DNA of 64,000 bases from Paucibacter sp. B2R-40 (lineage in GTDB: Bacteria; Pseudomonadota; Gammaproteobacteria; Burkholderiales; Burkholderiaceae_C). A program made the translations under genes and the position numbers. Shown one piece after another: positions 11,388 through 11,537 of this stretch. The stretch's first letter is position 1. Every line of letters begins with the position of its first letter. The stretch spans positions 1-64,000 of the forward strand of contig NZ_JAJIRP010000007.1 of the NCBI RefSeq assembly GCF_025717555.1, written 5' to 3'. The notes beneath the pieces were generated by a model that was not told the origin of the DNA, searched no databases, and was given only the letters and a program-made list of their open reading frames with translations.

Positions 11388-11537
11388 CTACATGAACAAA
11401 TGTTCCCCCGCGTTGTGGCTACGCCGAAATGCCGGCCGACATTGTCCTGTTACATAAATAGATGCTCGCCGGCGTTTTGGCTGCGCCGGAACGCCGGGCC
11501 CCACTGCTCTGCTACATGAATAAATGTTCGCCAGCGT
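11388..11537 (-). repeat. Three tandem copies (62-bp period) of a conserved C-terminal coding cassette at the end of guaC
   Basis: On the minus strand three units end in the same peptide and a stop, [12 protein letters not shown]. Unit 3 (11512-11537) is the in-frame end of guaC. Unit 2 (11450-11511) and unit 1 (11388-11449) lie downstream of the guaC stop. The period is exactly 62 bp, so neighbouring copies are in different frames. Units 1 and 2 share a longer peptide, P-A-F-R-R-S-(H/Q)-N-A-G-E-H-L-F-M. By hand alignment the two 62-bp units differ at 17 sites, 14 of them third codon positions. The eight shared codons of all three copies differ only synonymously (for example GAA/GAG, TTA/CTA/TTG, TTC/TTT), and the stops vary TAG/TAA. 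This pattern indicates selection on the peptide rather than recent DNA duplication. Confidence 0.85.

Follow-up and report, generated by a model that had tools for sequence, protein, structure and literature searches.

REP/BIME repeats are short, gene-free palindromic units that lie behind genes and are dispersed in many copies. Integrative elements restore the 3' end of the gene, leaving a duplicated end with the native copy in the distal position. In integrons, the core of the attC site has the consensus RYYYAAC/GTTRRRY. Finally, guaC itself is named as an attachment site of Tn7-like CRISPR transposons.

The repeats described here lie at the 3' end of guaC in a stretch of 64,000 nucleotides of Paucibacter sp. 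B2R-40 (referred to below as the window). Like REP/BIME units, the guaC-type modules are short, gene-free and palindromic, and stand behind genes; however, they carry the coding end of the host gene, and the genes at which they were found are just three: guaC, a dps-like gene and ftsW. Dispersal of the REP/BIME kind was not seen, as the three matches in the own genome and those of a covariance model of the long modules (R1) among the best 150 candidates of each of 18 genomes all fall at guaC. As with integrative elements, the ends of guaC and of the dps-like gene are duplicated and the native copy is displaced downstream (judged by eye), but units of approximately 62 to 113 bp are too small for a gene, and viral, phage and plasmid searches found no carrier. 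The arrangement of modules in an array, the hairpin between modules and the pairing of an arm with the start of its own module recall integron cassettes; however, the stem CCGGCGTT/AACGCCGG by inspection does not fit the attC core, and a crude motif scan led to no identified integrase. Unlike the Tn7-like CRISPR transposons, the units at guaC are separated by spacer only. Two papers mention guaC alongside attachment sites (PMC11406308, PMC6360697). Concerted evolution of prokaryotic repeats, where copies in one genome likewise exchange sequence, is presented for whole genes in the abstract of PMC6053082, while here the stop-codon end of one gene would be concerned. Among literature titles within scope, which leaves most subscription journals outside, none announced such modules, and the eight papers containing a linker string are all on other subjects.

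In the window, guaC lies on the minus strand and is followed by two further units and then by valS (Table 1). The initial annotation had described three minus-strand units with a period of 62 bp, and these are real: the tandem-repeat row 11388-11538 (period 62, 2.4 copies, 75% matches, score 176) and the coordinates of the tails confirm them. Its count of third-position differences between copies 2 and 3 was likewise reproduced, with 14 of the 17 differences (in 62 bases) at third positions; the third-position share is 6/7 in the tail, 4/4 in the arm and linker, and 4/6 in the spacer. Another tandem array of the window, at 41049-41449 (158-bp unit, 2.5 copies, 99% match), consists of units that by eye resemble a tRNA gene.

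Table 1. Features at the 3' end of guaC in the window (positions in the window).
Feature	Position	Strand	Remarks
guaC, GMP reductase, 325 aa + stop	11512..12489	-	NCBIfam PRK05458.1 and TIGR01306 above cut-off; Pfam IMPDH
Tail 1, coding NAGEHLFM + TAG, start of module 1	11512..11538	-	in frame, end of guaC
Arm closing module 1, CCGGCGTT	11490..11497	-	matched 7/9 to tail 1, 8/9 to tail 2
Linker hairpin CGGCGCAGCCA	11478..11488	-	linker also present at ftsW and the dps-like gene
Tail 2, past the stop, NAGEHLFM + TAA	11450..11476	-	4/24 coding bases differ from tail 1, all synonymous
Arm closing module 2, CCGGCATT	11428..11435	-	matched 8/9 to tail 2, 6/9 to tail 3
Linker hairpin CGGCGTAGCCA	11416..11426	-	
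Tail 3, last copy, read as displaced native guaC tail	11388..11414	-	flank GGACAAT comes next, as after the single tail of module-free G024
Flank GGACAAT	11381..11387	-	common to G001, G012, G015, G016, G017, G024 and G050
valS, downstream neighbour	8451..11315	-	NCBIfam PRK05729.1 above cut-off

A module begins with the gene tail (at guaC the last eight codons) and stop; a spacer comes next, then an arm, mostly complementary to the first bases of that same tail, and a linker hairpin. The next tail follows, the arm standing 21 nt before it. The guaC modules are either short (approximately 62 nt, n = 24) or long (75 to 94 nt, n = 17), the long ones having the additional hairpins P3 and P4. Arms with at least 8/9 matches were found in 22 of the 27 guaC regions with copies and in 5 of the 92 without, two of those five being decayed arrays. 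Over 39 junctions, at the positions where the flanking tails differ, the arm agrees with the preceding tail in 25 cases, with the next tail in 14 and with neither in 4, with two rows mis-assigned in this count (G046, to a decoy copy, and module 3 of G016, shifted by one base); the comparison at position 9 is even (9 vs 8), and in module 1 of the window the arm fits the following tail better (8 vs 7 of 9). Spacers after successive tails differ and are unlike the native flank.

This anatomy bears on the stretch P-A-F-R-R-S, which the initial annotation had taken as a shared part of the peptide. The third-position counts were right, but the stretch is a stem arm and a hairpin. Part of its phase pattern is a matter of geometry, since stem positions opposite the third positions of the tail share their phase; the remaining variable positions belong to a loop or junction, and linkers with a 1-nt insertion in G012, G015 and G017 break the frame.

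The tail is the ordinary end of GuaC. Every one of the 80 named relatives examined, which are the best of at least 566, ends in (E/D)NAGEHL(F/L)M, in three variants found in 55, 15 and 10 of them, the last being GGDNAGEHLLM; the nearest named relatives among the matches listed are Paucibacter and Roseateles. ENAGEHLFM ends guaC in 17 of the 18 genus genomes, that is, in every one where the end of guaC is present, the gene of G008, like the flank of G011, being cut by a contig end. Thus, nothing has been appended to GuaC, and the proposals that it had lost its usual ending and had received a foreign tail are both contradicted.

Copies were found at guaC alone with the hairpin-plus-tail pattern, the degenerate tail pattern and model R1. 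In 399 genomes of the family, a hairpin-plus-tail pattern gave 12 matches in 10 genomes, all directly behind guaC, and a tail-only pattern was present in at least 145, single matches being counted whatever their gene. A degenerate tail pattern (up to 3 mismatches) had three matches in the own genome (5.61 Mb) and none in the control. Model R1 had 29 matches in 15 of the 18 genus genomes, all at guaC by position (best 150 candidates scored per genome), and in a sample of the order it matched one of 300 genomes, the own (best 14 candidates scored per genome). Two sets of candidate dispersed copies were rejected, namely weak additional blastn matches of the array in the own genome, the four strongest of which look like chance, and six BLAST matches of a long module away from guaC in the genus, five of which were inspected and contained no module by eye. 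In G295, among the matches listed, the guaC tail pattern was matched on two contigs (C114 and C516), which may be an assembly duplicate.

The suggestion of the initial annotation that the peptide spreads to other genes finds no support in this distribution. A mobile peptide tag appended to GuaC would account for the third-position bias, but it is extremely improbable, given the ordinary ending in all of the 80 best relatives and a hairpin-plus-tail pattern that occurs at no other gene in the own genome, the 399 family genomes or the 18 genus genomes. As to the observations that the initial annotation had itself named as contrary to this reading, the tail is indeed the usual one for the family; the downstream copies, however, are not decayed duplicates confined to this genome, as they occur in several genera and many are undecayed.

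Collection of guaC 3' regions yielded 134, of which 119 were distinct; G164 and G247 gave no tail, and 96 regions entered a tree. A same-strand copy within 600 nt is present in 27 of the 119 distinct regions, compared to 7 of 2380 shuffles, and no opposite-strand copies were found in them. In the tree of the 96 guaC bodies, array rows form two clusters (22/26 and 7/12 rows, with the decayed copies of G007 and G009 scored as array rows). Across 16 genus genomes (within L086-L103), the gap between guaC and valS measures 199 to 12495 bp and differs in gene content; the open frames of the two largest islands in this gap were inspected by eye.

The position of the modules relative to the native gene end can be followed by comparison with relatives. 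Extra modules sit between the gene body and the apparent native tail, and module-free relatives show an empty site (by eye, in G024, in G006 compared with G010, and in G272 compared with G091). GGACAAT stands directly after the guaC tail in module-free G024 and follows the last copy in G000, G001, G016 and G050. Because the same flank follows the sole tail of G024, and the pairs G006/G010 and G272/G091 behave alike, the last copy in the array is best read as the native guaC tail.

Comparison of near relatives also shows that the module supplying the predicted coding end differs between them. G012 and G015 share 99.1% identity in the guaC body, and G017 has 96.7 and 96.8% identity with them. 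Between G012 and G015, three of the eight tail codons and the stop differ, a difference equalled by 6 of 310 eight-codon windows. By module type (assigned by eye), the arrays are a-b-c-a in G012, b-c-b in G015 and a-b-a in G017. Between the coding module of G015 and the second, untranslated module of G012, the only differences are one substitution and one 1-nt indel; the second module of G017 shares this type but has diverged further. G017 is the outgroup, and its array starts with a G012-type module. This is most simply explained if the leading module was lost in G015, so that a previously untranslated copy took over as the coding end. Near relatives differ in the number and order of copies (G012, G015 and G017; G006 and G010), in fragmented assemblies; those of G012, G015 and G017 consist of 210 to 480 contigs, so that repeats could have been collapsed.

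The reading that we prefer, with a probability of roughly 0.6, is that the 3' end of guaC bears a small recombining array, in which spare endings would be exchanged with the coding end. Modules would be gained, lost and swapped by recombination or by replication slippage through the repeated tails, and perhaps also acquired from other strains. Every copy would then have been, or descend from, a functional gene end. The pairing of tail and arm, and in longer modules a coding-strand cloverleaf, may be kept by selection acting on the 3' end of the mRNA or on one DNA strand.

Such a history bears on the protein-like appearance of the untranslated copies. Among 41 copies defined by the linker alone, peptide and stop are intact in 24. 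Compared with their own coding tails, these 41 copies have 74 synonymous and 42 non-synonymous codon changes, and base changes at 99 third, 35 first and 23 second positions; the non-synonymous changes are concentrated in frame-shifted or decayed copies, many of them in a few frame-shifted ones. Internal copies are intact in 13 of 18 cases and last copies in 11 of 23, and a polarity of decay with internal copies better kept was discarded as not significant (p 0.20). The amino acid-level constraint noticed in the initial annotation is real and persists in the larger set, but it is best explained as a signature probably inherited from times when the copy was the gene end. It is read as inherited since, in the pair G012/G015, one genome uses as its coding end what the other has as a copy beyond the stop, and descent from functional ends would make divergence mostly synonymous with no need for translation. 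The resemblance between copies and the coding tails found in other genomes (10/44 exact, 28/44 within one base) was dropped as support, because randomly recombined coding codons match more often (45% exact, 88% within one base).

Modules were also found behind two other genes. A gene-end scan of the own genome revealed a dps-like gene with its tail repeated past the stop; the protein is ferritin-like by Pfam, with the NCBIfam Dps models below their cut-offs. In the genus, 7 of the 16 parsed copies of this gene have a tail repeat within 260 nt and nine have none (G001 was unparsed, and the gene was not found in G012); an empty site is seen by eye in copy-free G011 compared with G006. Where copies are present, the tail codons are CTC-AGG-AGT; G002, G004, G005, G014 and G016 have CTG-CGC-AGC instead (L311-L327). 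Copy-free G009 and G011 retain CTC-AGG-AGT, possibly as a footprint of a lost module. A linker search gave 31 matches, compared to one in the control: six at guaC, six at the dps-like gene, two at ftsW, 16 elsewhere with no module by eye, and one at G016:C542. The ftsW modules belong to G007, whose protein passes the FtsW cut-off, and G017. The dps-like and ftsW modules are alike in linker, arm and hairpins; their sequence is unrelated and the peptide is different. What recurs at other genes is therefore the module (arm, linker and hairpins) with the host gene's own ending, so that the recurrence expected in the initial annotation is borne out for the module and not for NAGEHLFM.

The gene-end scan, which covered 37% of one genome by open frames, gave 24 matches at 8364 open-frame ends (spurious frames included) and five in shuffles. 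In a stricter scan of 1693 frames, four tail copies (guaC, a parE-like gene and two repeat clusters), two head copies (the same clusters) and four mid-gene copies were found, and these numbers lend no support to gene-end enrichment in the own genome. A general module scan (linker, arm and stop; 2.06 Mb) gave six matches and three in the reversed control, guaC alone being convincing; matches of an earlier scan of this kind were mostly noise and were discarded.

Behind the parE-like gene (L400:123-2198 and the end of L399; contig C23, minus strand, stop near 40125; TIGR01055 just below cut-off) stands a copy of its last codons that has five synonymous and no other codon changes. A gene for an FtsX-type permease (Pfam; L394:7345-8660; contig C12, plus strand, stop near 428505) has a last-codon copy with seven synonymous and no other changes. 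In both cases the palindromic element CCGGGCCGCCCCAAG lies between the gene and the copy, and because of this different element neither was accepted as a guaC-type module. This element has 10 sites in 2.06 Mb of the own genome and none in the reversed control, with gene-tail copies flanking two of the 10. Two repeat clusters, one with TTTCAACGGTTGAAA palindromes and a period of 111 bp, lie on the minus strand of contig C1 near 118-122 kb.

The dps-like modules fold with z-scores of -2.4 to -6.2 and the two ftsW modules with -3.8 and -3.5 (60 shuffles each; the G014 row, a false parse, is left out). A stem closing a branched, cloverleaf-like fold is part of the minimum-energy structure in 7 of the 10 dps-like and ftsW modules; the minimum-energy fold is not a cloverleaf in G008, G010 and the ftsW module of G017. 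In the long guaC modules, at least five of the first nine bases pair with the arm side in 14 of 17, and the start of the tail is unpaired with the arm in three. The modules of the window are of the short type and fold weakly (z -1.70; 10 of 200 shuffles fold equally well).

Folding of the coding strand is better than that of its complement in all nine dps-like and ftsW modules compared (p 0.004) and in 13 of the 17 long guaC modules (p 0.017), with 53/111 in control gene ends; short guaC modules have no preference (10/24). Tail codons permitting hairpin P2 occur in 11/11 genomes with long modules, 2/13 with short modules and 18/90 without an array, counts that are inflated by kinship. Changes on both sides of a pair affect two pairs in the long guaC modules, which is reached by 142 of 500 shuffles. 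Cells with both-side changes number 5, compared to 1.5; these cells and the covariation score are reached by one of 500 shuffles, a result that relatedness can inflate. In Rfam, no match reached the gathering score for window positions 10800-12700 and seven loci.

A bolder reading, which we hold only tentatively, is that these modules are mobile, carry no genes, form an unrecognised class and insert themselves at the 3' ends of housekeeping genes. Each would bring its own synonymous version of the last codons and stop, insertion would replace the coding end with no change in the protein and push the native end downstream, and spare endings could be promoted to the coding end; the outer stem and one inner hairpin of the coding-strand cloverleaf would consist of coding sequence. 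Entry by site-specific recombination, with the guaC end as attachment site and the modules as minimal cassettes arriving at the gene end, seems unlikely to us. It would agree with arms that mostly follow the start of their own module, as in an excised circle, with empty and filled sites that are module-sized, and with a duplicated 3' end whose distal native copy resembles the scar of an integrative element. Yet no carrier was found, as no viral contig had two patterns, no phage matched and three plasmid records matched weakly, none over more than 24% of the query; moreover, modules of approximately 62 bp are too small for a gene. A crude integrase-motif scan of 82 guaC neighbourhoods gave three matches, and between the repeats only spacer was present.

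Somewhat less credible still is a structured 3' UTR, the modules being kept for a fold of the mRNA 3' end (protection, termination or control of guaC, dps and ftsW) and the copied tails being a by-product. The end swap and the displaced tail would be left unexplained, the short modules have no inner hairpins, and the guaC-end fold is dispensable, as 92 of the 119 guaC regions are free of copies. The likeness of the cloverleaf plan at three genes whose sequences are unrelated, the folding preference of the coding strand and the distribution of P2-permitting codons do favor such a role; however, the codon counts are raised by shared ancestry, the cloverleaf is absent from the minimum-energy fold in 3/10 dps-like and ftsW modules, and tail and arm are unpaired in 3/17 long guaC modules. 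Ordinary tandem duplication of the gene end, now decaying and with no exchange, would suffice for a head-to-tail array in which some copies have decayed and the last ones are intact in 11 of 23 cases. It is nevertheless improbable in view of the undecayed copies with many synonymous and few other changes, the differing spacers, which are not native flank, and the end swap in the sister genomes G012 and G015.

With the recombining array as the preferred reading, the locus indicates that untranslated DNA can bear a protein-coding signature without being translated, having inherited it through passage via a coding position. Such an inherited signature is a trap for gene finding based on third-position bias. 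If the modules are mobile, they would represent a gene-free way to occupy the end of an important gene, each bringing along a functional version of that end. A similar fold with unrelated sequence and a different peptide, as at the dps-like gene and ftsW, makes this question testable.
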